Assembly (NCBI RefSeq): GCF_022760805.1
Contig: NZ_JAIVFL010000001.1
Coordinates: 3,410,001-3,474,000, forward strand
Direction of reading: 5' to 3'
Origin: Candidatus Mycolicibacterium alkanivorans
GTDB lineage: Bacteria > Actinomycetota > Actinomycetes > Mycobacteriales > Mycobacteriaceae
DNA: 64,000 bases
Position 1 is the first letter of the stretch, and each line of letters opens with the position of its first letter. The notes beneath the pieces were generated by a model. It did no database searches, was not told where the DNA came from, and was given only the letters and a program-made list of their open reading frames with translations. This document shows positions 16,240 through 31,086 of the stretch, piece after piece. Position numbers and translations under genes: made by a program.

Positions 16240-17829
16240 TCAGCTGAACTGAAAGCCCTTGTAGCCAGCGTCCTTGCACTCCGAGAGCACGTTGCGGTAG
16301 GCGCCCAGACCCGCAAGGTAGAAGTAGACCGTGTTCTTCTTGCCGGGAATGTTGGCGCCGAAAATCCATGACTGTGCCTTCGGGAACAGCGTCGCGTCGG
16401 CGACCTCGCGGCAGGTGGCGGTCCAGTCCTGCTCGGCGTCGGCGGTCGGCTCCACGGTGGAGAAACCGGTCTGCTCCACGTGCCCGATCAGGTCGGTGGA
16501 CCACTCCACCTGTGTCTCGATCGACGGCGGCAGGTTGGTGAAGGGGCCATTAGGCCCGAGCACCATGAACATGTTCGGGAAGTTCGCGACCGCCACCCCG
16601 AGATAGCTTGACGGTCCGTCCTTCCAGTAGTCCGCCATCGTGAGGCCATTGCGGCCTCGCAGGTCGAAACGCTTGTAGTTGCCGTCGACCGCGTCGAATC
16701 CGGTGGCGAAGATCAGGATGTCGATCTGGTGCTCCACCCCGTCGGAGGTCCGGACGCCGGCGGGCGTGATCTCCGCGATCGGATTCTCCTTGACGTCCAC
16801 GAGTTCGACGTTGTCACGGTTGAAGGTTGCGTAGTACCCGCTATCGCACAGCGGCCGCTTGGCGTAGAGGTCCCGCGGCATCAGCTTGCGGGCCGTCTCG
16901 GGGTCCTTGACGATCTCTGCGATCTTGCCCTTGATGAAGTCTTGTGCGGCCTTGTTCGCGACCTCGTTGGTGGCAATGTCGGCGAAGGTCTCGAACATGA
17001 AGCGGAAGCCGCCGCCCTTTTCCCACGCTCGCTCGAAGATCGCCAGCGCCTCCGACGACGACACGGACTCGTAGGTGGTGGTGCTCTCCTCGAAGCCGAA
17101 GGCGACGACCGAGTTGCGCACCTGCTCCCAGATGGCCTCGTAGTTCTCCTTGACGTCTGCGACGTACTCGCGAGAGACCGGCCCGTTGCCCACGGGGACG
17201 GTGAACTGGGCCGAGCGCTGGAACACGGTCAGATGGTCGACCTCGGGAGCGATCGCGGTGATGACCTGGACTCCGGTGGATCCGTTCCCGATCACACCAA
17301 CCCGTTTGCCGGCCAGTTCGAGGTCGGCCGGCCACTGGCTGGTGTGTACGTGGACGCCTTGGAAGGTGTCGATGCCCTTGAGGTCGGGGAGGTTCGTGGC
17401 CGACAGCAGCCCCACCGCGGTGACGAGGTACTTCGCGGTGTGCAGTTCGCCGGTGTCGGTCTTGACGTGCCAGAGGTTGTCGTTCTCGTGGAAGTGCGCC
17501 GCGACGACGCCGGTGTTGAGCTGAATATCGGGCCGCAATTTCCAGCGGTCGGCCACGTGCTCGAGGTAGCTCAGGATTTGCGGCTGGGTGACGTAGCGGG
17601 TGTTGAAGTCCCACTCTTTCAGCAAGTCCTTGTCGCAGGAGTAGCAGTAAACGAACGACTCGGTGTCCGAGAGTGCGCCCGGGTAACGGTTCCAGTACCA
17701 GGTACCGCCCACGCCACCGGCCTTGTCGAACAGTCGCACGTTCAAGCCGTGCTCGTCGCGCAGCTTCTTGAGGGCATACATCCCACCGAAGCCCGCGCCG
17801 ATGACGATCGCATCATGGTGAGTGCTCAT
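16240..17829 (-). CDS. Type I Baeyer-Villiger monooxygenase
   Basis: A flavoprotein that inserts oxygen next to a ketone carbonyl, giving an ester or lactone with NADPH and O2. Its 529 residues match cyclohexanone/acetone-monooxygenase-like enzymes. The first Rossmann motif GAGFGG is at 11-16; the family fingerprint F-x-G-x3-H-x3-W spans F156 to W166; the second Rossmann motif GNGSTG is at 181-186. ATG with AGAGGA upstream. It lies between an esterase and an aldehyde dehydrogenase, the arrangement expected for ketone to ester to acid plus alcohol. In Gordonia sp. TY-5 an analogous pair (acetone monooxygenase plus esterase) serves propane metabolism. Confidence 0.93.
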   Translation of the reverse strand: MSTHHDAIVIGAGFGGMYALKKLRDEHGLNVRLFDKAGGVGGTWYWNRYPGALSDTESFVYCYSCDKDLLKEWDFNTRYVTQPQILSYLEHVADRWKLRPDIQLNTGVVAAHFHENDNLWHVKTDTGELHTAKYLVTAVGLLSATNLPDLKGIDTFQGVHVHTSQWPADLELAGKRVGVIGNGSTGVQVITAIAPEVDHLTVFQRSAQFTVPVGNGPVSREYVADVKENYEAIWEQVRNSVVAFGFEESTTTYESVSSSEALAIFERAWEKGGGFRFMFETFADIATNEVANKAAQDFIKGKIAEIVKDPETARKLMPRDLYAKRPLCDSGYYATFNRDNVELVDVKENPIAEITPAGVRTSDGVEHQIDILIFATGFDAVDGNYKRFDLRGRNGLTMADYWKDGPSSYLGVAVANFPNMFMVLGPNGPFTNLPPSIETQVEWSTDLIGHVEQTGFSTVEPTADAEQDWTATCREVADATLFPKAQSWIFGANIPGKKNTVYFYLAGLGAYRNVLSECKDAGYKGFQFS

Positions 17830-17893
17830 ATCAGTCGGTCCTCTGTTCTCTTCGTGCCCGAATTTGTCTGTCCGAGTTCGTCTGCCGGGAGGG

Positions 17894-18793
17894 TCAGCGG
17901 CGGTACCAGCTGCCGATCCGGGCGATTTCCGCGTCGGCCTCCGGGGCGCGCCCGGCGAGGCAGGGAAACACGTGCTGCATGCGGTCGACGACGGAGAGCG
18001 TCACCTCGGCGCCCGCCGCCGAGGCCCGGTCGGCGAGCCGGGTTGCGTCATCCAGCAGCGTTTCCGCCGACCCGGCGCTGATGTACAACCGAGGGAAACC
18101 GGTGTAGTCGGCGTACAGCGGGTTGGCGAGCGGATCATCGGGCTTGCCGGTCTCGCCGAGGAACATCGCCGACATCCCCTCGAGGATCTGTCGACTGACC
18201 AGGCCGTCGGCGGCCGCGTTGGTGGTCAAGCTTTCGCCGGCGAGCTCCATGTCAAGCCACGGCGAGATGGCGATCACTGCGCCGGGCAGCGGCGAGCCGT
18301 CGTCGCGGAGCTTTAACACGGTGGCGACGGCCAGGTTGCCGCCGGCGGAGTCGCCGGCGGTGATGATGCTGCCGGGCGCGAAGCCTCGGTCCAGCAGCGC
18401 GCGATACACCGCGGTGGCGTCTTCGATCTGCGCGGGGAAGGGATGCTCGGGCGCTCGCCGGTAGTCGAGGACGAACGCTGTCGTCCCGAGCGCTTTGGCG
18501 AGGTGTGCGGCGAGCTTGCGGTGGCTGGCCGCGGATCCGGTTGCGAAGCCGCCACCGTGGGTGTATAAGATCACCCTCGACGTGTCCGCGCCGAGCGGGA
18601 GGGCCCAGATACCCTCGACGCCGGCGACGACGTCCGACCGGTACGTCACGGCCTCGGGCTCCTTAGTCGGCTGGTGCCACTCGTCGAACATGCTGCGCAG
18701 CATCCCAATGGACATTTGTGGGTCGGCGGCCATGCGGCTGGACCAGGCCCGGTAGAGCGCCTCGAGAAAGTCGGCTTCTGCAGAGACGGTCAC
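17894..18793 (-). CDS. Alpha/beta hydrolase, HSL-type esterase
   Basis: A 299-residue carboxylesterase of the hormone-sensitive-lipase family. The oxyanion loop is HGGGF, the nucleophile motif GDSAGG, and the catalytic His lies in MQHVFP near the C-terminus. I chose GTG 18793 because AAAGG lies upstream; an in-frame GTG at 18814 would add seven residues. Upstream of and co-directional with the Baeyer-Villiger monooxygenase gene, so it most likely cleaves that enzyme's ester or lactone. First gene of the module; faces the AcoR-like regulator across 326 bases. Confidence 0.92.
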   Translation of the reverse strand: MTVSAEADFLEALYRAWSSRMAADPQMSIGMLRSMFDEWHQPTKEPEAVTYRSDVVAGVEGIWALPLGADTSRVILYTHGGGFATGSAASHRKLAAHLAKALGTTAFVLDYRRAPEHPFPAQIEDATAVYRALLDRGFAPGSIITAGDSAGGNLAVATVLKLRDDGSPLPGAVIAISPWLDMELAGESLTTNAAADGLVSRQILEGMSAMFLGETGKPDDPLANPLYADYTGFPRLYISAGSAETLLDDATRLADRASAAGAEVTLSVVDRMQHVFPCLAGRAPEADAEIARIGSWYRR

Positions 18794-18882
18794 GAGCGTT
18801 GCCTTTCGGATCACAGTTGCTTTTCCGGGATTGTGATGTGGACAACCCGACTATCAGTGTGTGAGCGGCGCAATAGCAACGA

Positions 18883-18901
18883 CTGTTCCGATTTGAAACA
18901 G
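18883..18901. promoter_or_regulatory. Imperfect dyad CTGTT-N9-AACAG
   Basis: An inverted repeat with CTGTT and AACAG arms sits in the 326-base gap (18794-19119) between the esterase and the AcoR-like activator. It is a reasonable target for that activator or for autoregulation. No other feature was recognised in the gap. Confidence 0.4.
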
Positions 18902-19119
18902 CGCGGCGGCCCCACGCTTCGGGCTTCCACAGCCCGCCCACTCCCAGGCCAAGACCGAAAGGGCGCCCGAAATCACCGTCCGCAGCGGTAGGCTTGTTCC
19001 AGGCGCTGTCGCGGACGCGTCGGCACGGCCCGCCCGACGGGTTGGCGGGGCCGAATTCCTCTCGGCGGACCGAGTCTCCGACAGCGGTTGCGTGAGTTCC
19101 GTGAGTCCCCGGAGGAACA

Positions 19120-20931
19120 ATGGCGAGGCCTTTCAGCGGCATCGAGCTGGACCGCTTGCGGGCGGCGCGGGAACGGCTGCTGGATCAAGGCGTGCAACAC
19201 CACGTCGACGTGTCGGGCACAGTCCGGGAATCGATCATGCGCAGCTGGCGCCGGTCGGCGAGCCAGGGCGTGCCCACCGACCGGATCGCCTTTCACCATC
19301 TCGATGCACATGGACGTTCCGAGCTGCTGTGCCGGTCGGCCGATCCCGTGCTGGATCGCCTGCAGGCCGACCTGGACGGGCTCGGTGTGGCGGTCTTTCT
19401 CAGCGATCACAAGGGCCGGATCTTGTCCCGGCGGGCGGCCGGCAACGTGCAGCGGAAGAAGCTCGACGGCTCGTGCGCCGCAGAAGGGTTCGACTTCTCC
19501 GAGTGTGCCGTGGGAACCAACGGCATCGGTACGGTCCTCGAGGAGAAGACCCCGCTGTTCGTCCGCGGAGGCGAGCACTTCAACGAGCTGCTGGAGCCGC
19601 TGGCCTGCGCCGGCGCACCCATCCGCATGGCTCCGGCCGGTCGAGTCCTCGGCTCGATCGCCCTGACCTGCTCGGTTGAGGCCACCAACCCGATGATGCT
19701 GACCCTGGCGGTGAACGCCGCCCGGCAGATCGAACAGGTGCTGGCCGACCTGGACGGAGGCCGCAACCGGGCCCTTTTCGCCGCGCTGAATCCCAAGTCC
19801 GGTGCCACCGGCCGGGTGCCGACGGTTGTACTGACCCCGGATGCGGTCGTTTCCAACACCGCTGGTCTTCAGTTCGTCACCCCGGAGCACCACCCATTGC
19901 TGTGGGAGGCCGTGACGAACCAGACCTGGGGCAGCGAGCCGCGAATCATCGAACTCGACCTGCCCTGCGGACGCGTGCTCGCGGTGGCGGAGCGACTCAG
20001 CGACCCCACCGGACACGCCTACCGGCTGGAGTTCAGTCAAGACTCGAAAAGCAGCCGGGCGCCTCGTCGACGCGAACCGGAAAGCGGCGAGTGCCTGCAT
20101 CCACTGCCGGCGGTCGATGAGCGGCTGCAGTACGCACTTCGGGTTTCTAGGACGATCGCAATCGACGGTCGGGCTGGCACCGGGAAGTACCACCTGTCCC
20201 GAAAAATCGCCGCGACGACCCCGCAGTGCCCCACCCGGGTAGTCGACATCGCGGCATTCGCGGCCAAGCCCGACACCGAGTGGCTCGCGGATGCGACCGA
20301 TGTGCTGTCGCGCGGCGGCCACGTCATCGTGCGTCACCTCGAACTGCTGGACCCTGGGTCGGTCGACAAGGTCACGGCGCTGACCGCGTTGACCACCGCA
20401 GCCGGCGGCGAGAAGGGGCGACTGCTGCTCACTGTCGACCTCCGAGCGGCGAGCGATCCCGTCGCCGAATTGGTGAAGGGCGCGGCGACCGTTGTCACCG
20501 TGCCCAACCTGTGCGACATGAAGGAGCAGATACCCGCAATCGCCGAGGCCATCCTGTCCGGCCTGGAAGGAATCCGGCCCGGCACCACCTTGGCATCCGC
20601 CCCACGACAGGCGCTCATGGCCTGCCCGTGGCCCGGAAACATCAGAGAGCTTCGCCAGGCGATGGTCGACGTTGCGGCCACACGGCCGGGCTGGCTTGTC
20701 CAACTCGAGAATCTGCCTCTGAGCCTGCGGGACGCGGCGCACAAACGTCAGCTGACCGGCTATGAAAGAGCCGAACGCGACGCAATCCTTGCTGCCGTCC
20801 AGGAAGCCAACGGCAATCGCTCCAAGGCGGCGGCACTGCTTGGGATCGGGCGAACCACCCTGTACCGCAAGATCCGTTCCCTCCACATCGACTGCCCCGA
20901 CCACATGTTCACCACCACGAGCGGTGGCTGA
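19120..20931 (+). CDS. AcoR-like GAF/AAA/Fis-type activator
   Basis: A 603-residue regulator laid out like sigma54-type activators. An N-terminal sensory region with a GAF-like domain (about residues 80-210, CAVGTNGIGTVLEEK) is followed by a degenerate AAA+ segment (Walker-A-like GRAGTGK around 350-356) and a C-terminal Fis helix-turn-helix (NGNRSKAAALLGIGRTTLYRKI). The GAFTGA loop that contacts sigma54 is not present, as in actinobacterial AcoR/MimR-like proteins, which must work with other sigma factors. It is divergent from the esterase-BVMO module and upstream of the diiron/SCP2 cluster, so either could be its target. Confidence 0.88.
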   Translation: MARPFSGIELDRLRAARERLLDQGVQHHVDVSGTVRESIMRSWRRSASQGVPTDRIAFHHLDAHGRSELLCRSADPVLDRLQADLDGLGVAVFLSDHKGRILSRRAAGNVQRKKLDGSCAAEGFDFSECAVGTNGIGTVLEEKTPLFVRGGEHFNELLEPLACAGAPIRMAPAGRVLGSIALTCSVEATNPMMLTLAVNAARQIEQVLADLDGGRNRALFAALNPKSGATGRVPTVVLTPDAVVSNTAGLQFVTPEHHPLLWEAVTNQTWGSEPRIIELDLPCGRVLAVAERLSDPTGHAYRLEFSQDSKSSRAPRRREPESGECLHPLPAVDERLQYALRVSRTIAIDGRAGTGKYHLSRKIAATTPQCPTRVVDIAAFAAKPDTEWLADATDVLSRGGHVIVRHLELLDPGSVDKVTALTALTTAAGGEKGRLLLTVDLRAASDPVAELVKGAATVVTVPNLCDMKEQIPAIAEAILSGLEGIRPGTTLASAPRQALMACPWPGNIRELRQAMVDVAATRPGWLVQLENLPLSLRDAAHKRQLTGYERAERDAILAAVQEANGNRSKAAALLGIGRTTLYRKIRSLHIDCPDHMFTTTSGG

Positions 20932-21144
20932 CGATCGAAGGCGTGCCTTCACGGGCCCCGGCGGCTGTCGAACTCGCTTATCGCCTGATCGCCGACGCTG
21001 GCCCTCGCAATCACCCGGTCGAGGTGACCGGCAACAACCTGCGCGACCTGATGAGCTTGGGTGGACCCCCCGATCACCGAGAACGCTTAACACCTTCGGG
21101 GCCGTATCTGGTAGCCCGACCAATGGTTGCGGTGCCGCGATGGC

Positions 21145-21172
21145 CCATTCGGGCCAGGGTTGGCCCGAATGG
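21145..21172. promoter_or_regulatory. 28-base perfect dyad upstream of the diiron gene
   Basis: CCATTCGGGCCA, a GGGT spacer, then the exact complement TGGCCCGAATGG. It lies 80 bases upstream of the diiron-protein ATG within the 321-base gap 20932-21252. It could be a regulator binding site for the downstream operon or the terminator of the AcoR-like gene. No T-tract follows and it lies more than 200 bases after that gene, which favours an operator. The rest of the gap shows no recognisable gene. Confidence 0.5.
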
Positions 21173-21252
21173 ACCTCCCGAGAACTGTGACCGGCGTCAT
21201 AGAGTGGCGTTACCGAGGGGTTACGGCACTTCATAGAGAGAAGGACCACCAG

Positions 21253-22437
21253 ATGACCGAAATACTGACCCGGATGCAGGCACTTCCGAGTGAAACTACG
21301 CTCGAAGACGAGGCATTGGCCGCTTACGAGAAGAAGTTCCGTGAGGACAACACCATCTGGGCTGAGCTTTTGCAGGAAAACCTCGACCGGCTTGAACGAG
21401 GCTCGTTTTCGCTGCACTGGATGAACACCGACGAGGCGAACTGGGGCGTACGTGCGCGGCCGAGTTCGCGGGGATTGACCTACACCGACATCAATCGTCC
21501 GCCGGCCTACGGCACGCTCCCCGAGCACAATGCGACACGCAACTTCGCCCCGCGCGGCTCGGTGCGCGACCCCTACGCCGAGCAGATGCCGATTATCGAC
21601 GCCTACGACATCCTCGATAAGAAGGACGCATGGGCGGACAACGTGGTGACGCTCTACGAAGAGGCCAAAGCACGGCAGTGGAACTCCACCAGCGACATCC
21701 CGTGGAGCGAGCTCGAGCCGGCCAGCGAGGATCTGGAGAAGGCTGCGTGCCAGCTGGCCACCTCCCTCACCGAGGTCGAGTTCGTCGCCGGCGACTTCCC
21801 GTCGCGCTGGATTTACCGCACCTCACCGGATTTCTTCGAAGTCAAGAACTTCCTCGTGACGCAGATGATGGACGAGGCCCGTCACATGGAGGTGTTCCGC
21901 AAGCGCGCGCTCGCCGCCGGCGGCGGCTTGTTGCACGCCAGCCCGGCTTTGGAGTGGGCGCTGAAGGCGATCCTCGAATCGCCAAGCCACACCCAAGGCA
22001 CATTCCTGCTCAATGTCCTGGGCGAAGGCCTTGTTCTGACCATATTCCGGGCCGGCGAATTCCTGGCCAAGACCCATGTCGACAAGGAAATCTTCCGGCG
22101 TTGCATGCAAGACGAGGCCCGCCACGTCTCTTATGGCACGCTGGAGCTGAAGAACTTCCTCGACAGCTCCACCGACCGGGACAAGGCGCTTTCGGATATG
22201 CACCGCTTCGCCGACCTCGGCGAGCAGATCATCCTCACCGCGCTGAGCAGCCCCGGCTTGCTGGAGCCGCTAGCCGTTCTCATGGGCGGTGGAGTCGACA
22301 AGATCGACGATGGCATGGAGGGTGTGTCGTTCCTGTGGGGGACGATTGTCGAGGAGTATCTACAGCGCTGTGATCGCGCTGGGTTTGACCGCCGCGAGAA
22401 GGTGACGATTCCGTTGGAGATGCCGTGGACAGCGTGA
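21253..22437 (+). CDS. Ferritin-like diiron protein, probable oxygenase
   Basis: A 394-residue soluble protein of the R2/AurF-like diiron class, not an SDIMO alpha subunit. Putative ligands in the four-helix bundle are E176 (or E174), E208 and H211 in DEARHMEVF, E258 (LGEGL), and E288 and H291 in DEARHVSYG. The spacing E-32-ExxH...E-30-ExxH is canonical. ATG preceded by AGAAGGA; an open frame to 21127 is unsupported. It overlaps the next gene (SCP2-like) at GTGA, and a ferredoxin follows, which could donate electrons. Hydroxylation, desaturation or N-oxygenation are all possible for the family; the substrate is unknown. The SCP2 neighbours hint at a lipid, sterol or other hydrophobic substrate. 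Confidence 0.85.
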   Translation: MTEILTRMQALPSETTLEDEALAAYEKKFREDNTIWAELLQENLDRLERGSFSLHWMNTDEANWGVRARPSSRGLTYTDINRPPAYGTLPEHNATRNFAPRGSVRDPYAEQMPIIDAYDILDKKDAWADNVVTLYEEAKARQWNSTSDIPWSELEPASEDLEKAACQLATSLTEVEFVAGDFPSRWIYRTSPDFFEVKNFLVTQMMDEARHMEVFRKRALAAGGGLLHASPALEWALKAILESPSHTQGTFLLNVLGEGLVLTIFRAGEFLAKTHVDKEIFRRCMQDEARHVSYGTLELKNFLDSSTDRDKALSDMHRFADLGEQIILTALSSPGLLEPLAVLMGGGVDKIDDGMEGVSFLWGTIVEEYLQRCDRAGFDRREKVTIPLEMPWTA

Positions 22438-22877
22438 GCACGCACACAGATCTTCCCACCGTCGAGTGGGTTACCCGACTGGCAGAGATCAACAAGGCTG
22501 ACCTCGCCGAGTTTCGCAAACTCGGCGAGGTTGACTGCCGGCTTGCCGTCAACATCTTCGACGGCGGCCCCGACGGGTCCGCGCTGATCGTCCAACTACG
22601 TTTCGACGGCTTTGACATCGACGAGATCAAGGAGATCGGCGAAACCGAACTGGAGTCGATGGATTTTGTCATCGAGACCGACCGAGACTCGTGGCTGGAA
22701 ATGGTGGACAACATCCGCGCCGGAGACGGCCGACCAGACCTCGATCACTCCCTCAACGCGCTGAGTATGGCGGCGACACCGATACGGGTTTGGTCATCCG
22801 ATCCGCTGGGTAGGGACATGTTTTTCCGCTACAACCAGAGTTTGCAGCATTTCATCAACAACTGTGCTCGGCTGTGA
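22434..22877 (+). CDS. SCP2-like small protein (first of three)
   Basis: A 147-residue protein with a sterol-carrier/SCP2-like pattern: a strand pair around LIVQLRFDGFDIDEI, then ESMDFVIETDRDSWLEMVDNI, which recalls the SCP2 core. GTG 22434 overlaps the diiron-gene stop (GTGA), giving translational coupling; an in-frame GTG at 22425 is an alternative. SCP2 domains bind fatty acyl chains or sterols in a hydrophobic tunnel. Its place between a diiron protein and a ferredoxin suggests substrate presentation or a coupling-protein-like role. The SCP2 assignment is weaker than for the two later copies. Confidence 0.65.
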   Translation: MSTHTDLPTVEWVTRLAEINKADLAEFRKLGEVDCRLAVNIFDGGPDGSALIVQLRFDGFDIDEIKEIGETELESMDFVIETDRDSWLEMVDNIRAGDGRPDLDHSLNALSMAATPIRVWSSDPLGRDMFFRYNQSLQHFINNCARL

Positions 22878-22905
22878 GTCGCCCGTCAGGGGAGAAGGAA
22901 GACAC

Positions 22906-23190
22906 ATGAGCCGCATTCGGCGAGGCCATTTCTATATTGATGACACATGCATCGGATGCGGAGCATGCGAGCATTCATGCCCGGGTCGCGTCGATGCCAT
23001 ATCGAAGAAAGCCGATGATTTCCTGGGCCGCTTCGTGATCGACCTGGAACAGTGCATCGACTGCGGGAAATGCGTGCCGCTGTGCCCGGTCGACTGTATT
23101 CACGACGGCCGTGTCGAGGCGGAGTTCGTGCCGGACAATGGCTACACGAAGATCGCGAAGCTGCACGACTGGGCGGCTCGAAAAAAATAG
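22906..23190 (+). CDS. Ferredoxin with two [4Fe-4S] motifs
   Basis: A 94-residue bacterial-type ferredoxin. Cluster motifs CIGCGACEHSCP (residues about 17-28) and CIDCGKCVPLCPVDC both follow the CxxCxxCxxxCP pattern, so two [4Fe-4S] clusters are expected. The C-terminus (about 20 residues ending in AARKK) extends beyond the minimal domain. ATG with GGAGAAGGA upstream. It lies in one run with the diiron protein and two SCP2-like proteins, so it is the obvious electron donor; no dedicated ferredoxin reductase is encoded nearby. Confidence 0.95.
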   Translation: MSRIRRGHFYIDDTCIGCGACEHSCPGRVDAISKKADDFLGRFVIDLEQCIDCGKCVPLCPVDCIHDGRVEAEFVPDNGYTKIAKLHDWAARKK

Positions 23191-23230
23191 TTGAGCGCGT
23201 CGAACGATTCAGGAGTTGAGGGACTTTACC

Positions 23231-23638
23231 ATGGGCGTTTTCAAAGATGGCGACGAGGCAACGAAGTACATTGCCGGGATCTTCGAGGAGGCGGTGGCAG
23301 ACGAATCGATCGCCGACCAACTCGCAGCATCCGGCGTTGTGCTACGACTCAACTGCACGGACCCGGACATCCAGATCACCGTCGACATGCCCAACAAAAA
23401 AGTGATCACCGGGAGCTGTGACCTTTCGCCCACCGTGGCGATGTCGATGACCTCCGACATGGCCAACCGGTTCTGGCAGGGAAAACTCAACCTTGCTGTC
23501 TCGCTGGCCAAGGGCCAGGTCCGCGCCAAAGGCCCGGTGCCGAAGATCCTCAAGCTCGTGCCCGTCGCCAAGAAGCTTTTCCCCCGCTACGAGGAGTCGC
23601 TGCGGGCCGGGGGGCGCACCGACTTGCTGGCTGTTTGA
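23231..23638 (+). CDS. SCP2 sterol-carrier-like protein (second of three)
   Basis: A 135-residue SCP2-domain protein: an N-terminal helix (DGDEATKYIAGIFEEAV), a beta-sheet core with DPDIQITVDMPNKKV, the helix SDMANRFWQGKLN, and the glycine-rich AKGQVRAKGPVPKILKL strand typical of SCP2. It aligns along its length with the protein at 25847-26248, notably in VDMPN and the N(R/K)FW motif. ATG 23231 with AGGGA upstream. Last gene of the diiron-ferredoxin run; a small hairpin follows before the convergent response-regulator gene. Confidence 0.85.
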   Translation: MGVFKDGDEATKYIAGIFEEAVADESIADQLAASGVVLRLNCTDPDIQITVDMPNKKVITGSCDLSPTVAMSMTSDMANRFWQGKLNLAVSLAKGQVRAKGPVPKILKLVPVAKKLFPRYEESLRAGGRTDLLAV

Positions 23639-23643
23639 CCGAA

Positions 23644-23659
23644 CGCCGGCACACCGGCG
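23644..23659. terminator. Short GC hairpin between convergent genes
   Basis: CGCCGG-CACA-CCGGCG, a 6-bp stem with 4-base loop, in the 32-base gap between the SCP2 gene and the convergent response-regulator gene. A shared terminator is plausible from position, but the stem is short. Confidence 0.4.
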
Positions 23660-23670
23660 GACCCGAATCC

Positions 23671-24345
23671 TCATTGCGACCAGTCGGCGTCGGCGAGGTC
23701 GTCGAGCAACCGAAGCCGCCCGGCCATCGCCGCGGCGGCGATACGGTTGGTGACACCGAGCTTGTGCAGCAACGCGGCCACCATCCGTTTGACGGTCCGC
23801 TCCGAGACCACCATCCGCCGCGCGATATCGCTGGTCTCCACGCCCCTGGCCAGCAAGGTCCACAGCTGAAGCTCCTGCGTGCTGAAGTTGTCCAGCAACG
23901 CTGGCCGCGGTTCGTGGGACTTCGCCAGCAGCGCGTCAAGCAGCGCGCCGTCGATGACCCGCAAACCTTCGGCGACGGTCCACAGCGGACCGGCCAGCGC
24001 TTCGGGCCGCGCCGTCTTCGGCAGGAATCCGTCGGCGCCGGCGCGCAGCGCCTCCTCGGCCAGCTCGAGGTTGTCGGTCCCTGACAGCGCCAAGATCCGG
24101 GTCTTGGGATGGCGCGCCTTAATATGCCGGATGGCGGCTATCCCGCCGAGCGGGGGCATGGACAGGTCGATGATCGCGACGTCGGCAGCACAGCGGGCCA
24201 CCAGGTCGGCAGCCTCCTCGACGTAGGTGGTCTGCCCACCCACCGTGAACGACTCGCCCCATTGACGGTTGAGCAGCAAAGCCAGGCCTTGTGAGAAAAG
24301 CTCGTGGTCGTCGACGATCACAACGACGTACGGCTTGCCACTCAT
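23671..24345 (-). CDS. NarL/LuxR-type response regulator
   Basis: A 224-residue response regulator. The receiver domain opens VVVIVDDHELFSQGL with the acidic pocket DD; the phospho-acceptor is D60 in AIIDLSMPP and the conserved Lys is in LPKTARPEA. The C-terminal LuxR-type helix-turn-helix is STQELQLWTLLARGVETSDIARRMVVSERTVKRMVAALLHKLG. Its start is only 35 bases from the divergent histidine-kinase start, leaving almost no leader, so both transcripts may be leaderless. It probably controls the surrounding diiron/SCP2/ligase/dehydrogenase cluster. Confidence 0.92.
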   Translation of the reverse strand: MSGKPYVVVIVDDHELFSQGLALLLNRQWGESFTVGGQTTYVEEAADLVARCAADVAIIDLSMPPLGGIAAIRHIKARHPKTRILALSGTDNLELAEEALRAGADGFLPKTARPEALAGPLWTVAEGLRVIDGALLDALLAKSHEPRPALLDNFSTQELQLWTLLARGVETSDIARRMVVSERTVKRMVAALLHKLGVTNRIAAAAMAGRLRLLDDLADADWSQ

Positions 24346-24380
24346 TGCTACGACGCTACTCCGGCCCTAATGTCGGCCCG

Positions 24381-25664
24381 GTGAGACCGGTCGATCAGCA
24401 CCGTTGGACGGCGGAGGGATACGGCGGCGGGCTGGCCCGCACAATCATCGCCGTGCGGATCGCAGTGGTGATCTCGGTCGGGGTGCTGCTGAGCGTCGAG
24501 CCGCCAGGGGTGCGCGTGTACCTCGCGATGATGCTGGCGGCGGCGATGGTCTATTCGGCGATCGTGTTCGTCCATCCGCAGCTGGAGGTGCGCCGCACCC
24601 GTTACCGCTGGCTGGTCACCGGCTTCGACTCGATGTTCGCGCTGGGGTTCATCGTGTTGACCGGCGGGGTGCACAGCCCAGCGGTGTCGGTGCTGGTGCT
24701 GGTCGTCATCGCCTCTGCTGCCCGGCTGTCGTTTACCGAGACGCTGGCGTTGGGGATGCTACTCGGCGCCGGGTACATCGCTGTCGCGTTACTTGCCCCC
24801 ACTGCCGCGAGTGCCGCGCTCGCACCGGTGCCGCAGAGTGGTTGGTGGGCGCTGTACCTGCTGTTCACCGCGATCATCACGGCGGGGCTGTCGTCCCTGG
24901 CCGAACATGAGCACCGATCCACCGTTCGGGCGTTGGTGGAGGCCGAAGCCGAACACGCCGCCGCCGAAGAGGAACGCGATCTGAGGAGCCGGTTGTTGCA
25001 GTCCTACCAGTCTCAGCAGGACGGACTACAGGTGTTGGTGCACGAATTCCGCACCCCTGTCGCCTCCTTGGAGGCGCTGGCGGACGCGCTCACATCGGCG
25101 AGGCCGATGACGGAATCCGACCGCGCCGCCAGCCTGCGGCTGGCGAGCCGCCACGTTGAGCACCTCAGTGACATGCTCGACGCCTTGTCCGACGTCGCGT
25201 TGAGCCGGCGCCCCACCTTCTCGGCGGGCCGGGTCCGGCGCGTCGACATCGCCGGCCTGATCACCGCTGCCGCCGACGCCGTGGGCCTGGTCTCACCGCA
25301 GCCGCGGTTGACGGTCAGCGGCGACGTAGGCGTAGTAGCGGTCAACGCCCAGGGGCTGCGGCGCGTGCTGACCAACCTGCTGGAGAACGCTTCCCGGCAT
25401 AGCCGTGACGCCTCCGTCGACGTGACGTGCGCGCGCACCGGCAACGAAATCGTCATCGAGATAGCCGACCGCGGTCCTGGCCTACCCGCTCGAAGTCTGG
25501 GCGAGTTGACGGCCAAATACGTCAGCGTCGGCGACCGGCGCGGCACCGCCGGGCTGGGCCTCTGGATCGTGCAGCAAATCCTCGAGGCGATCGGTGGGCG
25601 AGTCGATTTCAGCGCGCGCGACGGCGGCGGGCTGGTAGCGACCGTTCGTGCCCCGATCAGTTAA
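24381..25664 (+). CDS. Membrane sensor histidine kinase
   Basis: A 427-residue kinase from GTG 24381. The N-terminal half has about five or six hydrophobic membrane segments (residues about 20-170) with little extracellular loop, suggesting it senses within or near the membrane, as expected for a hydrophobic inducer. A coiled-coil-like linker rich in Glu/Ala (180-205) leads to the H-box HEFRTP with H221. N-box NLLENASRHSR, G1 DRGPGLP and G2 GTAGLGLWIV complete the ATP-binding domain. It is the partner of the divergent response regulator, although it has the His-kinase-A-type H-box rather than the short NarX-type one usual for LuxR regulators. Confidence 0.92.
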   Translation: MRPVDQHRWTAEGYGGGLARTIIAVRIAVVISVGVLLSVEPPGVRVYLAMMLAAAMVYSAIVFVHPQLEVRRTRYRWLVTGFDSMFALGFIVLTGGVHSPAVSVLVLVVIASAARLSFTETLALGMLLGAGYIAVALLAPTAASAALAPVPQSGWWALYLLFTAIITAGLSSLAEHEHRSTVRALVEAEAEHAAAEEERDLRSRLLQSYQSQQDGLQVLVHEFRTPVASLEALADALTSARPMTESDRAASLRLASRHVEHLSDMLDALSDVALSRRPTFSAGRVRRVDIAGLITAAADAVGLVSPQPRLTVSGDVGVVAVNAQGLRRVLTNLLENASRHSRDASVDVTCARTGNEIVIEIADRGPGLPARSLGELTAKYVSVGDRRGTAGLGLWIVQQILEAIGGRVDFSARDGGGLVATVRAPIS

Positions 25665-25846
25665 CTCTCGGTCGGCCGGGCGATTGGCCCACGAAGGCCA
25701 CTGATTGGCACGCGCGCGCCTCGTATGGCGTTGCTGTGATCGAGACCATAGTTAGGGCACCCACCGGGCGCACACCACAATGCCGCGACGGCGCAACGCC
25801 AGCGTGTATCAGCGTGTCACCCGGTGTGCACAGAACGGAGGCTGGG

Positions 25847-26248
25847 ATGGCTGTTGTCACCGATGAGGACGAGGTTTACACCCACCTCGGTGGGATTTTC
25901 CTGCATGGCCCGGAAAAGGACGGATGGCCGCCAAACTCGCAGCCTCGGGTGTTGCGGGTTCGTCACACCGATCCGGGTGCGGTGGTGACGGTGGATATGC
26001 CCAATAGGGTCGTCGAAACCGGAGCGTCAAGTATGGCGGTGCCCAGCGTCGAGTTGGTTGTGTCTGCGGACATGGGAAACAAGTTCTGGTTGCGGAAGGT
26101 GAACTTGACGGTGGCGATGGGCAAGGGCACGGTGCGGACCAACGGCCATGCCAACCTGATCATGCTGATACCGCAGGCCAAGAATCTGTTCCCGGAGTAC
26201 CGGCTGATGCTGGAGGGCGAGCACCGCCAGGACCTCATCGATGCGTGA
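25847..26248 (+). CDS. SCP2 sterol-carrier-like protein (third of three)
   Basis: A 133-residue SCP2-like protein paralogous to that at 23231-23638: it keeps VVTVDMPNRVV, the SADMGNKFWLRKVNLTV helix-strand and LFPEYRLMLEGEHRQDLIDA at the C-terminus. The N-terminal region is altered and carries an insertion-like stretch rich in Pro and charged residues. ATG 25847 with GGAGG upstream. It starts a run with the acyl-CoA ligase (46 bases later) and the alcohol dehydrogenase. It may deliver an alcohol, acid or acyl product of the diiron enzyme to these enzymes. Confidence 0.8.
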   Translation: MAVVTDEDEVYTHLGGIFLHGPEKDGWPPNSQPRVLRVRHTDPGAVVTVDMPNRVVETGASSMAVPSVELVVSADMGNKFWLRKVNLTVAMGKGTVRTNGHANLIMLIPQAKNLFPEYRLMLEGEHRQDLIDA

Positions 26249-26293
26249 GCTGTGGCAGGCGGCCGGTCCGTTGGGCGGCGGGGAGGTGTCGCG

Positions 26294-27922
26294 GTGAAAA
26301 GCACGATGCAGGACGAGCAGCTGACCGTCGCCAGCATCGTCGGGCATGCGTCAACGGTGCATGGTGAGCGGAAGATCTTCACCGCGCACGGTGCGGGCAA
26401 GATTTCGTCAATGACGTACCGGGAGTTGGCGGTTCGGGCGGCTCGGCTGGCCAACGCGTTGCGTGAGATCGGTATCCGCGGCGACGAGCGGGTCGCCACG
26501 CTGCAGTGGAGCAATCAGGAGCACCTGGACAGTTACGCCGCGGTGCCGTCGATGGGCGCGGTGCTGCACACGTTGAATCTGCGGCTGCCACCCGACCAAT
26601 TGGTCTGGATCACTAGCCATGCCGATGACCGGGTGGTCATCGTCGACCATACGGTGCTGGGCTTGCTGGCCGCGGCGCTGCCGAAGATGACCTCGGTGCA
26701 CACGGTGCTGGTCACCGGTGACGGCGATCTGTCGCCTCTGGAGGGTTGCGGGAAATCCGTTGTGCGCTACGACGAGGTGGTGGCGGAACAGCCCGAGACC
26801 TTCGACTGGCCCGACCTCGACGAACGGTCCGCGGCGGCGATGTGCTACACGAGCGGAACCACCGGTCACCCGAAAGGGGTGGTCTACAGCCATCGCTCGA
26901 CGTGGCTGCATTCCCAGGCCGCCTGCACGGCGAACGCGTTGAGCATCAGCCACGACGACACGGTGCTGGCCATTGTGCCGATGTTTCACGCCAACGCCTG
27001 GGGGCTGCCTTATGCGGCGATGATGGCCGGCGCGCAGCTGGTGTTGCCCGATCGCTTCTTGCAGGCTGCGCCGCTGGTGGAGATGATCGAGGCGACGCGT
27101 CCGACGATATCGGGTGCGGTACCAACGATTTGGACCGATATCCTGCACTACCTGCGCAACAATCCCGGCCATGACTTGAGTTCGCTGAAGCTGGTGGCGT
27201 GCGGCGGATCTGCGGTACCGCGGTCGCTGATGACCGCGTTTGACGAGTTGGGCGTCCGCATTGTGCAGGCGTGGGGTATGACCGAAACCTCACCGCTGGT
27301 CTCGGTGGCGCTGCCGCGCGACAGCGACTCCGTGGAGACGACAACGCGACTGCGGGCAACGCAGGGCCGGGTGGTGGCCGGCGTGCAAGCCCGCATCGTC
27401 GACGACGCCGGCGTCGAACAACCCTGGGACGGCAAATCCGTCGGAGAAATCCACGTCCGCGGGCCGTGGATCACACAACGCTACTACGGCCAGGAGACCA
27501 CCGCGGTCTCCGCCGACGGGTGGCTGCCGACCGGTGACATCGGCACGATATCCGAGGATGCGTTCATCACGTTGACCGATCGGGCCAAAGATGTGATCAA
27601 GTCCGGCGGTGAATGGATTTCCTCGGTGGAACTGGAAAACGAACTGGCCGCGCACCCCGCCGTGTGCACCGCGGCGGTCATCGCGACGCCCGACCCCAAA
27701 TGGCAGGAACGACCGTTGGCGGTGATCGTGCTTCACACCGAGCACACCGCTACCGCCGCGGAACTGGCGGACTTTCTGCGCGACCGGGTGGCAAAGTGGT
27801 GGCTGCCGGAGCGGTGGACGTTCGTCACCGAGATGCCGCTGACGTCGACCGGCAAGTTCGACAAGAAGAGACTTCGCCAGCAGCACGCGGGCGGCGCGTT
27901 CGTCATCGAGACCCTCGGCTGA
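26294..27922 (+). CDS. Fatty-acyl-CoA ligase (FadD-type, AMP-forming)
   Basis: A 542-residue ANL-superfamily enzyme that activates a carboxylic acid with ATP and CoA. It shows the phosphate loop YTSGTTGHPKGVVYSH, the adenine motif AWGMTETSP, the hinge region DGWLPTGDIG...DRAKDVIKSGGEWISSVELEN, and the C-terminal catalytic Lys in STGKFDKKRL. GTG 26294 has GGGGAGG upstream; an in-frame ATG at 26252 is less likely. Medium-chain FadD-like sequence. It would convert the acid formed by oxidation of the alcohol/aldehyde into a CoA ester. Confidence 0.93.
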   Translation: MKSTMQDEQLTVASIVGHASTVHGERKIFTAHGAGKISSMTYRELAVRAARLANALREIGIRGDERVATLQWSNQEHLDSYAAVPSMGAVLHTLNLRLPPDQLVWITSHADDRVVIVDHTVLGLLAAALPKMTSVHTVLVTGDGDLSPLEGCGKSVVRYDEVVAEQPETFDWPDLDERSAAAMCYTSGTTGHPKGVVYSHRSTWLHSQAACTANALSISHDDTVLAIVPMFHANAWGLPYAAMMAGAQLVLPDRFLQAAPLVEMIEATRPTISGAVPTIWTDILHYLRNNPGHDLSSLKLVACGGSAVPRSLMTAFDELGVRIVQAWGMTETSPLVSVALPRDSDSVETTTRLRATQGRVVAGVQARIVDDAGVEQPWDGKSVGEIHVRGPWITQRYYGQETTAVSADGWLPTGDIGTISEDAFITLTDRAKDVIKSGGEWISSVELENELAAHPAVCTAAVIATPDPKWQERPLAVIVLHTEHTATAAELADFLRDRVAKWWLPERWTFVTEMPLTSTGKFDKKRLRQQHAGGAFVIETLG

Positions 27923-27970
27923 TCATTTCCCGGCGATAAACCAGAAGTATCCAGTGTAAGGAGTGAAACG

Positions 27971-29077
27971 ATGAAGACACGTGCTGCGGTTCTGTGGGGT
28001 CTGGGACAGAAATGGGAGGTCGAGGAGGTCGAGCTGGATCCCCCCGGTCCCGATGAGGTGCTGGTCCGGCTGACCGCGACCGGGTTGTGTCACTCCGATG
28101 AGCACCTGGTCACCGGCGACCTGCCGATTCCGTTTCCGGTGGTGGGCGGGCACGAGGGCGCCGGCACCGTGGCCGCGGTCGGATCCGGGGTCGAGGACGT
28201 CGTCGAGGGCGACTCCGTCATTTTGACGTTCCTGCCCGCGTGCGGACACTGCTCCTACTGTGCACGCGGCATGGGCAACCTGTGCGAGATGGGTGCGGCG
28301 GTCATGATGGGACCCCAGATCGACGGCACCTACCGCTTCCACGCCCGCGGCAAGGACGTCGGCCAGATGTGTTTGTTGGGAACGTTTTCCGAGTACACCG
28401 TGGTGCCCAAGGCCTCCGTGGTGAAAGTCGACGCCGGGACCCCGCTGGACAAGGCGGCGCTGATCGGGTGCGGTGTCACGACCGGGTACGGGTCGGCGGT
28501 ACGCACCGGCGAGGTGCGCGCCGGGGACACTGTGGTCGTGGTGGGGGCGGGCGGCGTCGGAATGAATGCGATTCAGGGTGCCCGCATCGCCGGAGCGTTG
28601 ACGATCCTGGCGGTCGACCCGGTGGCATTCAAGCGCGAGCAGGCCGGTGGATTCGGCGCGACGCACACCGCCGCCACGATCGACGAGGCGCGGGCGTTGG
28701 TCAGCGATCTCACCCGGGGCAAACTCGCCGACGTGTGCGTGTTGACCACCGACGTCGCCGAAGCGTCCTACACCGGCGAGGCGCTGTCGTTGGTGGGAAA
28801 GCGGGGCCGGGTCGTGGTGACCGCGATCGGGCACCCCACTGACAGCTCGATGTCGGGATCATTGCTGGAAATGACGTTGTACGAAAAGCAGATCCGCGGC
28901 GCGTTGTATGGGTCGTCCAATGCCGCCCATGACATCCCACGGCTGGTTGAGCTCTACAACGCGGGGCAACTCAAACTCGACGAGTTGATCACCCGTGAAT
29001 ACAGCCTCGAGCAGATCAACGAGGGATACGACGATATGAGATCAGGCCGCAACGTTCGAGGACTCATCCGGTTCTGA
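27971..29077 (+). CDS. Zn alcohol dehydrogenase, NDMA/mycofactocin type
   Basis: A 368-residue zinc-dependent MDR alcohol dehydrogenase. The catalytic zinc region GLCHSDEHL and GGHEGAG, the structural zinc cluster CGHCSYCARGMGNLC and the cofactor loop GAGGVGMNAIQGA are all visible. The sequence type (FPVVGGHEGAGTVAAVG, NLCEMGAAVMMG) matches mycobacterial NDMA-dependent dehydrogenases, which hold NAD tightly and regenerate it through mycofactocin. ATG with AAGGAG upstream. It follows the acyl-CoA ligase by 48 bases. The mycofactocin biosynthesis genes are not in this window. Confidence 0.92.
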   Translation: MKTRAAVLWGLGQKWEVEEVELDPPGPDEVLVRLTATGLCHSDEHLVTGDLPIPFPVVGGHEGAGTVAAVGSGVEDVVEGDSVILTFLPACGHCSYCARGMGNLCEMGAAVMMGPQIDGTYRFHARGKDVGQMCLLGTFSEYTVVPKASVVKVDAGTPLDKAALIGCGVTTGYGSAVRTGEVRAGDTVVVVGAGGVGMNAIQGARIAGALTILAVDPVAFKREQAGGFGATHTAATIDEARALVSDLTRGKLADVCVLTTDVAEASYTGEALSLVGKRGRVVVTAIGHPTDSSMSGSLLEMTLYEKQIRGALYGSSNAAHDIPRLVELYNAGQLKLDELITREYSLEQINEGYDDMRSGRNVRGLIRF

Positions 29078-29104
29078 CGGGGCTGCTGGCTCGATGGGGT
29101 TTGA

Positions 29105-29335
29105 CGACGGTGCAGACACCGAATCGACACCCGGACGGGTGGACAGCTGCGGGTCGACTACCTGACCCGCGTCGGCGCCGGGTTGTGTGTGCGCTGCACC
29201 GATGACCCGGTGGCCGGTTGGGCGTGGGTGACCGATGAAATCGACGCCGTACGCCGCCTGGCCGACGCCATGGACTACGCTGCGCGCTCGGTGACAACGA
29301 GCACCACCATGTTGATGACGAAAGGCCCGCTGTGA
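29105..29335 (+). other. Open frame coupled to the next gene; small CDS or remnant
   Basis: In the 254-base gap after the alcohol dehydrogenase, one frame is open from 29105 to a TGA at 29333-29335 that overlaps the GTG of the transglutaminase-like gene (GTGA), the junction type used throughout this region. Its last residues (DEIDAVRRLADAMDYAARS) look like a protein helix. Only TTG or GTG starts (29183, 29189, 29228) are available and no good ribosome site is seen. It may be the 3' remnant of a longer gene or a very small coupled protein. No homology was recognised. Confidence 0.35.
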
Positions 29336-30000
29336 ACGGCACATCGACCGATCCCGATCCGACTTTCCTGGGAACCACGGAGTTCTTGGACTGGCACCAC
29401 GACAACGTCCAGCGCTTCACCCAGGCGGCGATCGGCGATAACCGGGATCCGGTGACAAGAGCCCAACGCATTTTCCGCGCGGTCCGTGACAACATCTGGT
29501 ACAACCCCTATAGCGCTGACGACGATCCCGGCCACTACCGCGCCAGTTACGTCGCGACCGCGGCCGGCGCCTACTGCATCCCCAAGGCGGTCCTGCTCAC
29601 CGCGGCAGCCCGCGCCGCGGGTATTCCCGCCCGGCTGGGGTTCGCCGACGTGCGCAACCACCTGCAAACCGACACGCTGCGCGCCCAGATGGGCGGCACC
29701 GACGTGTTCGTCTACCACGGCTACAGCGAACTGTTCGTCAACGACCGTTGGGTCAAGGCGACACCGGCGTTCAACGCCGAACTGTGCGCCCGATTCGGCG
29801 TCCCGCCGATCGATTTCGATGGCGAACACGACGCGCTTTTACACACCTTTGACAGCGAAGGCCATCAGCACATGGAATACCTTCATGACCGCGGCTGGTA
29901 CCACGACCTTCCCTTCGCCGAGATCATCACAGAGTTCCAGCAGCGTTACGGTCCGCTTCTGCAGCCACCTCCGACCGAGCGCGACACTTTCGCTAAATAG
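29332..30000 (+). CDS. Transglutaminase-like cysteine protease-fold protein
   Basis: A 222-residue protein of the bacterial transglutaminase-like superfamily. The core reads AAGAYCIPKAVLLTAAARAAGIPARLGFADVRNH with nucleophile C82, followed by FVYHGYSELFV with H129 and RWVKATPAFN, where the usual Asp of the triad is not obvious. GTG start with AAAGG upstream and a GTGA overlap with an upstream open frame. Such proteins may be proteases, amidases or non-enzymatic. Its tie to the alcohol-dehydrogenase/ligase run is unexplained. Confidence 0.8.
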   Translation: MNGTSTDPDPTFLGTTEFLDWHHDNVQRFTQAAIGDNRDPVTRAQRIFRAVRDNIWYNPYSADDDPGHYRASYVATAAGAYCIPKAVLLTAAARAAGIPARLGFADVRNHLQTDTLRAQMGGTDVFVYHGYSELFVNDRWVKATPAFNAELCARFGVPPIDFDGEHDALLHTFDSEGHQHMEYLHDRGWYHDLPFAEIITEFQQRYGPLLQPPPTERDTFAK

Positions 30001-30171
30001 ACTGCCGGGTGGCCAGCGGTGCTGGCGCACCGACTGCTCGAGAGCGACCACGGTCAAGCGTCGAGCGGCAGCAGGTCAGCGGTCACAGCTCAGAGGATTA
30101 CCTACCGTCTTTTGCATGTCCAGCGCTCAATTGGGAGTGCATTGTTGACGATTGTGCAAGAGTTGCGAGCT

Positions 30172-31086
30172 ATGCAGCTGCACCACATCGAGGCCTTCCT
30201 CGCGGTCGCCGAGGAACTGCACTTCGGCCGGGCAGCCGAACGGCTGCATGTCGCCCAGCCCCCCTTGAGCCGCACGATCAAACAGTTGGAGCGCGACCTG
30301 GGGGCCCACCTTTTCGAGCGCACGACCCGCAGCGTGCGGCTCACCAGCGCCGGTGAGGCCCTGCTCGATCCGGCACGGCAGGCACTCGAAAGCTGCCGCG
30401 CCGCGCGCCGCGCCGTGCAATCGGCGGGCCGCGGCGAGACCGGGCGCGTCCGAATGGGCTTCGCCGGCCCGTCGTCGCACCTCTTGGTCGGTCAGCTTGG
30501 TCGGCTCGTTCGCGAGCGTCTTCCCGGCATCGAATTGAGCCTGCAGAGCACGACGTATGCCGCCGAGGGGCTGCGTTCGGTGATGGACGGGAGTCTCGAT
30601 CTCGCGATCGTGCGCTGGACGGTGGAACCGCCCGCGATCGCGCACCGGATCGTCACCGTGGAGCACTACGTGCTCGTGGTCCCGAAGGGGCATCGGCTCG
30701 CCGGGCGAAATCTGGTGAGCATGGCGGAGTGCCGCGACGAGGCATTCGTCGCGCTGCCGGCCGACCCCGGATCCAGCCTGCGCGACGCGTTCACCCGCGC
30801 GGCCCACGACGCCGGCTACCCGCCGAACATCGTGCAGACCGCCCCGGACTCGTGGACCGTGATGGCGCTGGTGGCGGCGGGTGTCGGAATCACCTTCACC
30901 GTCGACGTCGCGGTCGTCAACGTTACCCAAGACGGCATCACGGTGGTTCCGCTGAAGGAGGGCCGGACGCCGACGTACTCCAGGCTCGCCTGGCGAAAGG
31001 GCGACACCAACCCGGCGTTGCACGAGGTCTTGGGTGCCTCGGAAGAGGCGCTGCCCACGCCCGACCTGCCAAACGGAGTGCACTGA
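30172..31086 (+). CDS. LysR-family transcriptional regulator
   Basis: A 304-residue LysR protein. The N-terminal HTH is MQLHHIEAFLAVAEELHFGRAAERLHVAQPPLSRTIKQLERDLGAHLF-like (given here by its ends: residues 1-48); the effector-binding domain follows from about residue 90. ATG 30172 fits the family start; an upstream TTG at 30145 with GGGAG is possible. It precedes a two-subunit CoA-transferase and thiolase on the same strand. BenM/CatR-like members with this N-terminus typically respond to aromatic-pathway intermediates, which fits. Confidence 0.92.
   Translation: MQLHHIEAFLAVAEELHFGRAAERLHVAQPPLSRTIKQLERDLGAHLFERTTRSVRLTSAGEALLDPARQALESCRAARRAVQSAGRGETGRVRMGFAGPSSHLLVGQLGRLVRERLPGIELSLQSTTYAAEGLRSVMDGSLDLAIVRWTVEPPAIAHRIVTVEHYVLVVPKGHRLAGRNLVSMAECRDEAFVALPADPGSSLRDAFTRAAHDAGYPPNIVQTAPDSWTVMALVAAGVGITFTVDVAVVNVTQDGITVVPLKEGRTPTYSRLAWRKGDTNPALHEVLGASEEALPTPDLPNGVH

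Follow-up and report, generated by a model that had tools for sequence, protein, structure and literature searches.

A diiron protein with an SCP2-fold partner and a ferredoxin fills the oxygenase slot of P450 loci in some mycobacteria

The 64,000-nucleotide stretch of Candidatus Mycolicibacterium alkanivorans analysed here—hereafter called the “window”, 64 kb of one contig in a 4.05 Mb genome of three contigs—carries a cassette, starting at position 21253, that encodes a diiron oxygenase-like protein, its SCP2-fold partner (scpA) and a ferredoxin. This three-gene core is a widespread bacterial module. The cassette fills the oxygenase slot that is held by a CYP268/CYP124-like cytochrome P450 (P450) in other mycobacteria, and by analogy this swap is the best clue that hints at its function. 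We consider it probable that the cassette encodes a diiron hydroxylase that is driven by the ferredoxin, assisted by the SCP2 partner and acts on a lipid-like or alkyl chain, and that in mycobacteria an NDMA-type alcohol dehydrogenase takes over the resulting alcohol. The genes of the region are as follows.

21253-22437, + strand: diiron oxygenase-like protein, 394 residues (reading frame, family scans)
22425-22877, + strand: scpA, SCP2-fold partner, 150 residues (GTG start at 22425)
22906-23190, + strand: ferredoxin with two [4Fe-4S]-type motifs, 94 residues (Pfam Fer4 families)
23231-23638, + strand: scpB, second SCP2-type protein (PF02036, E 2.8e-5, 24.8 bits, cut-off 21.3)
23671-24345, - strand: NarL/LuxR-type response regulator (PF00072, PF00196)
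24381-25664, + strand: sensor histidine kinase (HATPase_c; RegB/PrrB family weakly alike, 78.5 bits, cut-off 350)
25847-26248, + strand: scpC, third SCP2-like protein (39% identical to scpB)
26306-27922, + strand: acyl-CoA ligase (PF00501, E 2.3e-80; NF004837, 668.7 bits)
27971-29077, + strand: NDMA-type alcohol dehydrogenase (TIGR03989, 567.8 bits, cut-off 440)
29332-30000, + strand: transglutaminase-like protein (PF01841, E 2.5e-16)

All genes that the initial annotation had described in this region were recovered by reading frames, Pfam and NCBIfam. The start of scpA overlaps the end of the diiron gene, whose stop codon ends at 22437, by 13 bases. The ferredoxin and scpB genes lie on the same strand as these two, and the regulator and kinase genes are divergent.

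How tightly is the diiron gene tied to its partners? One genome per species was scanned in 84,980 species with the diiron patterns only, and the best 80 of the 195 relatives found were analysed; 10 of these 80 loci are mycobacterial and partly near-copies. The scpA gene was counted by the position of its domain, with a profile that excludes shadow reading frames overlapping the diiron gene, and loci were eligible when at least 450 bases (scpA, 76 loci) or at least 900 bases (ferredoxin, 73 loci) lay downstream. Of the 76 loci eligible for scpA, 73 have it immediately 3′ of the diiron gene; of the 73 eligible for the ferredoxin, 56 have a ferredoxin gene at a distance of no more than 1.2 kb. 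With the mycobacteria left out, the counts are 63/66 and 46/63, respectively. In all three genomes whose locus lacks an adjacent scpA (L128, L129 and L148), the gene resides on another contig, and scpA is present in all nine genomes tested for a copy located elsewhere. The initial annotation had called for a search for such co-occurrence across Mycobacteriales, and the linkage extends well beyond that order: the triad loci carry the record labels Actinomycetota, Pseudomonadota, Myxococcota, Binatota and Chloroflexota.

A sample of 396 genomes drawn from within the phylum, of the same size for the diiron and scpA searches, gave a consistent picture. The close diiron family (at least about 45% identity over most of the length) occurs in four genomes (G000, G514, G609 and G640), and seven further genomes have only relatives of 30-39% identity. 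scpA matches at E<1e-30 were found in the same four genomes alone, and two others gave weak matches of about 5e-5, with up to nine candidates scored per genome. Since the genes are linked in 73/76 and 56/73 loci and the same 4 of the 396 genomes carry both, the linkage is not due to chance. Moreover, the pairwise distances of the diiron protein co-vary with those of scpA (r 0.77, 61 loci; permutation maximum 0.11) and of the ferredoxin (r 0.88, 46 loci; permutation maximum 0.16). The diiron tree mixes the phylum labels, with 15 changes against a minimum of 4; this fits transfer of the module, and with metagenome bins and long branches among the sequences it is no proof. Beyond the diiron, SCP2-like and ferredoxin genes, nothing conserved was seen outside mycobacteria, except for a divergent TetR-type gene upstream (12/79 loci, assigned by clustering, with one member confirmed by Pfam), the scpB gene of L145 and the gene set of the BP_133 genome described below.

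Within the genus, a full-length diiron orthologue (93-100% identity) occurs in 14 of 396 sampled genomes, at 15 places if the window is counted; one further genome has a remnant of 64 residues, and seven genomes have only relatives of 31-35% identity. Besides the window, 12 places were read with wide flanks and two (G828 and G1133) with short flanks only, and the partner counts refer to the window plus these 12. scpA, the ferredoxin and scpB are present in 12/12 of the other stretches. The kinase/regulator pair is found in 7 of the 13 places (the window and six others), a full-length alcohol dehydrogenase in five, plus one truncated, scpC in four, once in two pieces, and the transglutaminase-like gene in four, where L086 ends too early to judge. 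A full acyl-CoA ligase of the window type is found in three.

Do these genes form one fixed pathway? The initial annotation had read them as oxygenating a lipid-like substrate carried by SCP2, oxidising the alcohol and activating the acid. The gene order from the diiron gene to the alcohol dehydrogenase is indeed the same in L085, L086 and the window, in favour of the whole 21-30 kb block being a single route to acyl-CoA. This idea is compatible with a hydroxylase and differs from it in extent, and we regard it as unlikely: the full ligase (3/13) and scpC (4/13) are sparse, neither occurs in six gordonae-type copies, and the block was not seen conserved outside mycobacteria. The acyl-CoA ligase step is not conserved and is best seen as optional. 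What stands of the earlier pathway is the diiron/SCP2/ferredoxin unit, the two-component system and the alcohol dehydrogenase as frequent mycobacterial partners, and the reading of oxygenation followed by oxidation, which is strengthened by the P450 swap.

The swap emerges from the genes around the kinase. Among 198 genus genomes surveyed, 36 have a kinase match at E≤1e-60, in 37 places, and 30 of these loci were examined; five are of the diiron type and 25 are not. The window's regulator/kinase pair is akin to the pair in these 25 loci, with 67-84% identity for the regulator (unmatched in L259 and L264) and 56-72% for the kinase. A CYP268-like P450 adjoins the kinase in 24 of the 25, the exception being L256, where the contig ends, and a single-cluster ferredoxin adjoins the regulator in 22. 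In G862 and G880, the related kinase and regulator genes lie elsewhere, flanked by the single-cluster ferredoxin on one side and on the other by the P450, followed by an NDMA-type alcohol dehydrogenase; in the two loci analysed fully (L238 and L239), this dehydrogenase is 69% identical to that of the window over its whole length. The P450 and the single-cluster ferredoxin stand where the window has the diiron protein, the SCP2 proteins and the 2[4Fe-4S]-type ferredoxin.

The kinase-linked P450 matches CYP268A2 (E 1.8e-115), a name that we did not find in an open-literature search, and CYP124, a named methyl-branched lipid omega-hydroxylase (about 1e-105). According to a review (PMC6469627), CYP124A1 carries out omega-hydroxylation and prefers methyl-branched lipids. 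None of the seven genomes with a kinase-linked diiron gene (G000, G002, G846, G919, G921, G998 and G1124) has an orthologue of the CYP268-like P450. Its best relatives in G919 and G921 are only 42-44% identical, and the other five genomes have no match at E≤1e-60; a first look, which is not a P450 census, gave 5-11 P450 candidates in these five versus 41-78 in the other nine genomes. In G002 (L084:12688-16300), a CYP153-type P450 and a [2Fe-2S] ferredoxin lie between the kinase and a 5′-truncated alcohol dehydrogenase. This P450 matches the structure of the CYP153A7 alkane hydroxylase at E 5e-169, and its best match is named just “Cytochrome P450”. Because diiron, CYP268-like and CYP153-type enzymes are all found there, one type of regulatory setting hosts three oxygenases, two of which are akin to chain-end hydroxylases.

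The regulatory setting also includes short dyad sites, and the window contains the following elements.

21146-21171, no strand: dyad CATTCGGGCCA-N4-TGGCCCGAATG, proposed operator, a perfect dyad upstream of the diiron gene
21186-21201, no strand: TGTGA-N6-YCATA element between the dyad and the start codon
25696-25711, + strand: dyad-type site GGCCACTGATTGGCAC before scpC-fadD-adh, built like those that precede CYP268-like genes elsewhere

The dyad at 21146-21171 is the sole match in the window at up to three mismatches, and 0 of 100 shuffles gave one. Its core, GGGYCA-N4/5-TGRCCC, lies 5′ of the diiron gene in 13/13 distinct mycobacterial places, where about 0.17 is expected per 64 kb, and between species the two arms show matched changes (C/G to T/A). 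Dyad-type sites also follow the kinase in L085 and L086, and one precedes the CYP153-type gene of G002. In the intervals between the kinase and the CYP268-like P450, the best match to the strict core has at most two mismatches in 24/24 loci (shuffle mean best, 2.9-3.6), and the relaxed form GGYCA-N4/5-TGRCMC is found before the P450 in 18 of the 24 (shuffle mean 0.035, maximum 1). We read these sites as a common operator and propose that it is bound by the regulator. The TGTGA-N6-YCATA element is present 5′ of the diiron gene in 13/13 mycobacterial places, twice in L084, and may be a promoter or a CRP-like site; a scan of 20900-30200 for sigma-70-type promoters found none, with 1.6 expected.

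Six cassette copies share long blocks of 99.9% identity, both among themselves and with M. gordonae, M. nebraskense, M. scrofulaceum and M. helveticum records. Around none of them is there a kinase, regulator, ligase or alcohol dehydrogenase of the window types. In five of the six gordonae-type copies (L087, L090, L092, L093 and L095; for example L090:5253-9785), 2.6-6.8 kb of inserted DNA separates the dyad from the promoter, so that in 5 of the 13 mycobacterial places the dyad lies 2.6-6.8 kb from the diiron gene, past the insertion. L091 has the uninterrupted form, with the dyad about 80 bases 5′ of the start codon. The insertions in four copies carry IS21-like istA/istB genes (by eye and by plasmid annotation), and no gene was called in that of L093. 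Part of such inserted DNA (L121:4022-8178) also occurs, at 99.9% identity, on M. intracellulare plasmids. Searches for a plasmid or phage origin of the cassette itself gave two weak, distant plasmid matches, no phage match and none confirmed in IMG/VR, and this origin was rejected; the plasmid likeness is limited to the flanking integrase/transposase DNA of the gordonae-type copies.

What kind of enzyme is the diiron protein? The six metal ligands (E, ExxH, E, ExxH pattern) are invariant in 71/71 aligned sequences and are those named in the initial annotation (E176, E208/H211, E258 and E288/H291). Alignment and predicted fold together place two E...ExxH half-sites on a four-helix bundle, as in ferritin-like diiron oxygenases. 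In Pfam and NCBIfam scans, the protein reaches no curated family cut-off, and it does not belong to the aldehyde-deformylating oxygenase family by sequence. It also differs from soluble methane monooxygenase and phenol hydroxylase: the protein has no match to PF02332 (soluble diiron monooxygenase hydroxylase), and the cassette has a ferredoxin instead of a coupling protein and a flavin reductase. After structural re-alignment, the predicted fold is closest to aldehyde-deformylating oxygenase and VlmB, in a re-ranking of Foldseek's own matches that leaves families outside that list possible. The window protein shares the fold and the ligand pattern with the aldehyde-deformylating oxygenase/VlmB/AurF group, and is set apart from it by an identity of 15-17% (structural rows), a length of 394 residues with a long N-terminal part, and the SCP2 partner.

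These likenesses raise three alternatives to a hydroxylase. An N-oxygenase or azoxy-forming enzyme like AurF or VlmB, acting on an amine-bearing lipid held by SCP2, appears quite improbable. The AurF profile (PF11583) gives the window protein 18.7 bits, below the gathering score of 29.6. In AurF, an additional His ligand precedes the Glu of the second ExxH by four positions; of the 71 sequences, 68 have Cys there and 3 have Thr. The neighbourhood contains an alcohol dehydrogenase and, by the swap, P450s akin to C-H hydroxylases. An enzyme that works like aldehyde-deformylating oxygenase, taking electrons from the ferredoxin to shorten a fatty aldehyde delivered by SCP2, is very unlikely in our judgement. 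A ligand-binding oxidase like R2lox, or a redox- or oxygen-responsive protein with SCP2 and the ferredoxin as maintenance partners rather than a catabolic catalyst, would agree with the top Foldseek match (R2lox, E 2.7e-3) and with the sole NCBIfam match (NF006200). That match scores 27 bits against a cut-off of 194, and turnover is suggested by the dedicated ferredoxin, by the linked alcohol dehydrogenase and by the way P450s take the place of the diiron protein under the same kind of regulation, so we hold this role to be highly doubtful.

Next, we consider the partner proteins. The initial annotation had spoken of three SCP2-like proteins. scpB is one by Pfam, as it passes the PF02036 gathering score (24.8 vs 21.3 bits). 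scpA has the SCP2 fold in its predicted structure and a weak SCP2 profile match, and falls short by Pfam, where only 1 of 66 members matched PF02036 (E 0.024). Near its C-terminus, scpA has a conserved D-x-F-x-R-Y-N-Q segment, which might, as a guess, be turned towards the entrance of the diiron site. scpC has no Pfam match of its own and is tied to the group by its 39% identity to scpB. The nearest precedent that we found is the UbiJ-UbiK pair of ubiquinone biosynthesis, in which an SCP2 domain partners enzymes with hydrophobic substrates; the SCP2 domain is proposed to hold the hydrophobic tail of the intermediates for the enzymes of the complex (PMC9499169). The ferredoxin had been described as a 2x[4Fe-4S] protein, in agreement with the two CxxCxxCxxxCP motifs read from its sequence and the Fer4 matches; its eight cluster cysteines are invariant in 23/23 aligned sequences (the window and 22 of 53 distinct ones).

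From the gene linkage, the invariant ligands, the predicted folds, the co-occurrence, the swap and the similar sites, we infer the following course for the preferred hydroxylase. In mycobacteria, the sensor kinase and the NarL-type regulator would turn on the operon through the dyad sites. scpA, and perhaps also scpB and scpC, would bind or deliver the hydrophobic, lipid-like or alkyl substrate. Electrons from a reductase encoded elsewhere would reach the diiron protein by way of the dedicated 2[4Fe-4S]-type ferredoxin, and the diiron centre would activate O2 and hydroxylate a terminal (omega) or near-terminal C-H bond. The NDMA-type alcohol dehydrogenase would then oxidise the resulting alcohol in mycobacteria, and an acyl-CoA ligase step would follow in some species only.

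Several points weigh against this reading. A slot shared with a P450 does not prove a shared reaction, and the kinase tree (13 kinases) fits either direction of the swap. No ferredoxin reductase is found among the cassette genes, and 17 of the 73 eligible loci have no ferredoxin in the vicinity, which is where it was sought, their genomes not having been searched; 11 of these 17 are labelled Binatota or Myxococcota. The co-variation of distances fits joint inheritance as well as co-function and cannot separate the two. As to the regulation, the strict core in the P450 intervals has one or two mismatches, a level that single shuffles also reach, and the relaxed pattern was drawn up after the sites had been seen. 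No dyad-type site was found after the kinase in L088, L089 and L094. Three of the genomes with gordonae-type copies (G1107, G1008 and G978) lack any kinase match down to E≤1e-20, and G1008 nevertheless keeps the dyad. Therefore, the window regulator need not be the dyad binder, and the idea that the dyad serves a regulator of the window type only is weakened.

Is the system new? As the initial annotation had supposed, no described system of this composition came to light: an open-literature search with exact words, with most subscription journals outside its scope, found no description of a diiron or ferritin-like protein combined with SCP2 or sterol carrier and ferredoxin. The kind of enzyme, a ferritin-like diiron oxygenase, is known, and the composition of the system appears to be new. 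A broader proposition is that this is a distinct oxygenase system in at least five phyla (by record labels), with single-protein and ligand-less-paralogue forms, and that in mycobacteria, some without P450s of the CYP124/CYP268 group, it replaced, under the control of related two-component systems, chain-end hydroxylases of the CYP268/CYP124 and CYP153 types; we regard this proposition as evenly balanced.

The enzymes known to hydroxylate the chain ends of hydrophobic molecules are mainly P450s, AlkB and multi-subunit soluble diiron enzymes. If the proposal holds, a small soluble diiron enzyme that brings its own lipid-binding protein would represent a novel means of offering insoluble substrates to a diiron centre, and biocatalysis could start from a compact system. 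The proposal would also give a function to genes that lie below the Pfam and NCBIfam cut-offs in many uncultured lineages (Binatota, Chloroflexota and Acidimicrobiia), and could explain how such chains are still oxidised in some mycobacteria that have no P450 of the CYP124/CYP268 group (E≤1e-60). Since the cassette is swapped with known hydroxylases, the list of substrates to consider is short, and the claim is directly testable.

The module also occurs in variant forms. The diiron protein, which had been described as stand-alone, is so in the window, and three relatives pair it with a second protein: in L229 (3364-5636), L230 (424-2671) and L231 (4663-6849), scpA adjoins tandem ferritin-like paralogues, only one of which bears the ligands; in L231 this ligand-bearing copy is interrupted by the contig end. 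The arrangement resembles the alpha/beta pairs of known hydroxylases. In the Actinomycetota metagenome-assembled genome BP_133, the diiron protein is 67% identical to that of the window, and the locus L232 carries regulator-scpB-scpA-ferredoxin-kinase in one cluster (8.9 kb of a 12.9 kb contig analysed), with a regulator 53% and a kinase 35% identical to the window counterparts. The diiron gene is absent from the 8.9 kb analysed and resides on another contig (L129). The presence of scpB and the two-component pair in this cluster shows that they are not limited to mycobacteria; outside these, scpB was found in L145 and L232.

In L097 (10756-11867) and L098 (10936-12001), a small CPNCG-containing protein is encoded between scpA and the ferredoxin, which has a Cys-rich, zinc-ribbon-like C-terminal extension. 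G836 (L096:9816-9998) retains a diiron remnant of 61 residues, 82% identical, with no scpA, ferredoxin or scpB match in 17.7 kb.

The more distant relatives in L100-L115 (30-41% identity) have different partners; they were rejected as the same system and left out of the counts. Their loci contain a phosphonate-type substrate-binding protein (16/16, by eye) and an acyl-CoA-dehydrogenase-like protein (14/16), and we know of no name for this gene set. These relatives seem to carry an N-terminal domain like TusA, to judge from L113 (gene set at 9635-12793), the one run against Pfam, where the match is weak (27.7 bits, cut-off 28.6). In L113-L115 the set adjoins genes that by their look resemble selB/selD and formate dehydrogenase.

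Finally, other oxygenase genes lie near the cassette. On the - strand at 1339-9619, the window carries two apparent soluble diiron monooxygenase gene sets, mostly recognised by eye; the hydroxylase at 8066-9616 (PF02332, 3.3e-52) is of a known diiron oxygenase type and lies about 12 kb from the new diiron gene. Downstream of the cassette, a LysR-type gene begins at 30172, past the transglutaminase-like gene. An AcoR-like regulator at 19120-20931 was rejected as a member of the system, as it is present in 0/12 of the other mycobacterial stretches (about 20 kb each). Within 13865-20931, a - strand group divergent from this regulator encodes a short-chain dehydrogenase, an aldehyde dehydrogenase, an FMO-like monooxygenase and an alpha/beta hydrolase; the monooxygenase is perhaps of the Baeyer-Villiger type, and the group perhaps a ketone pathway. 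L088 carries 94% identical DNA for this monooxygenase and the hydrolase beside its own cassette.

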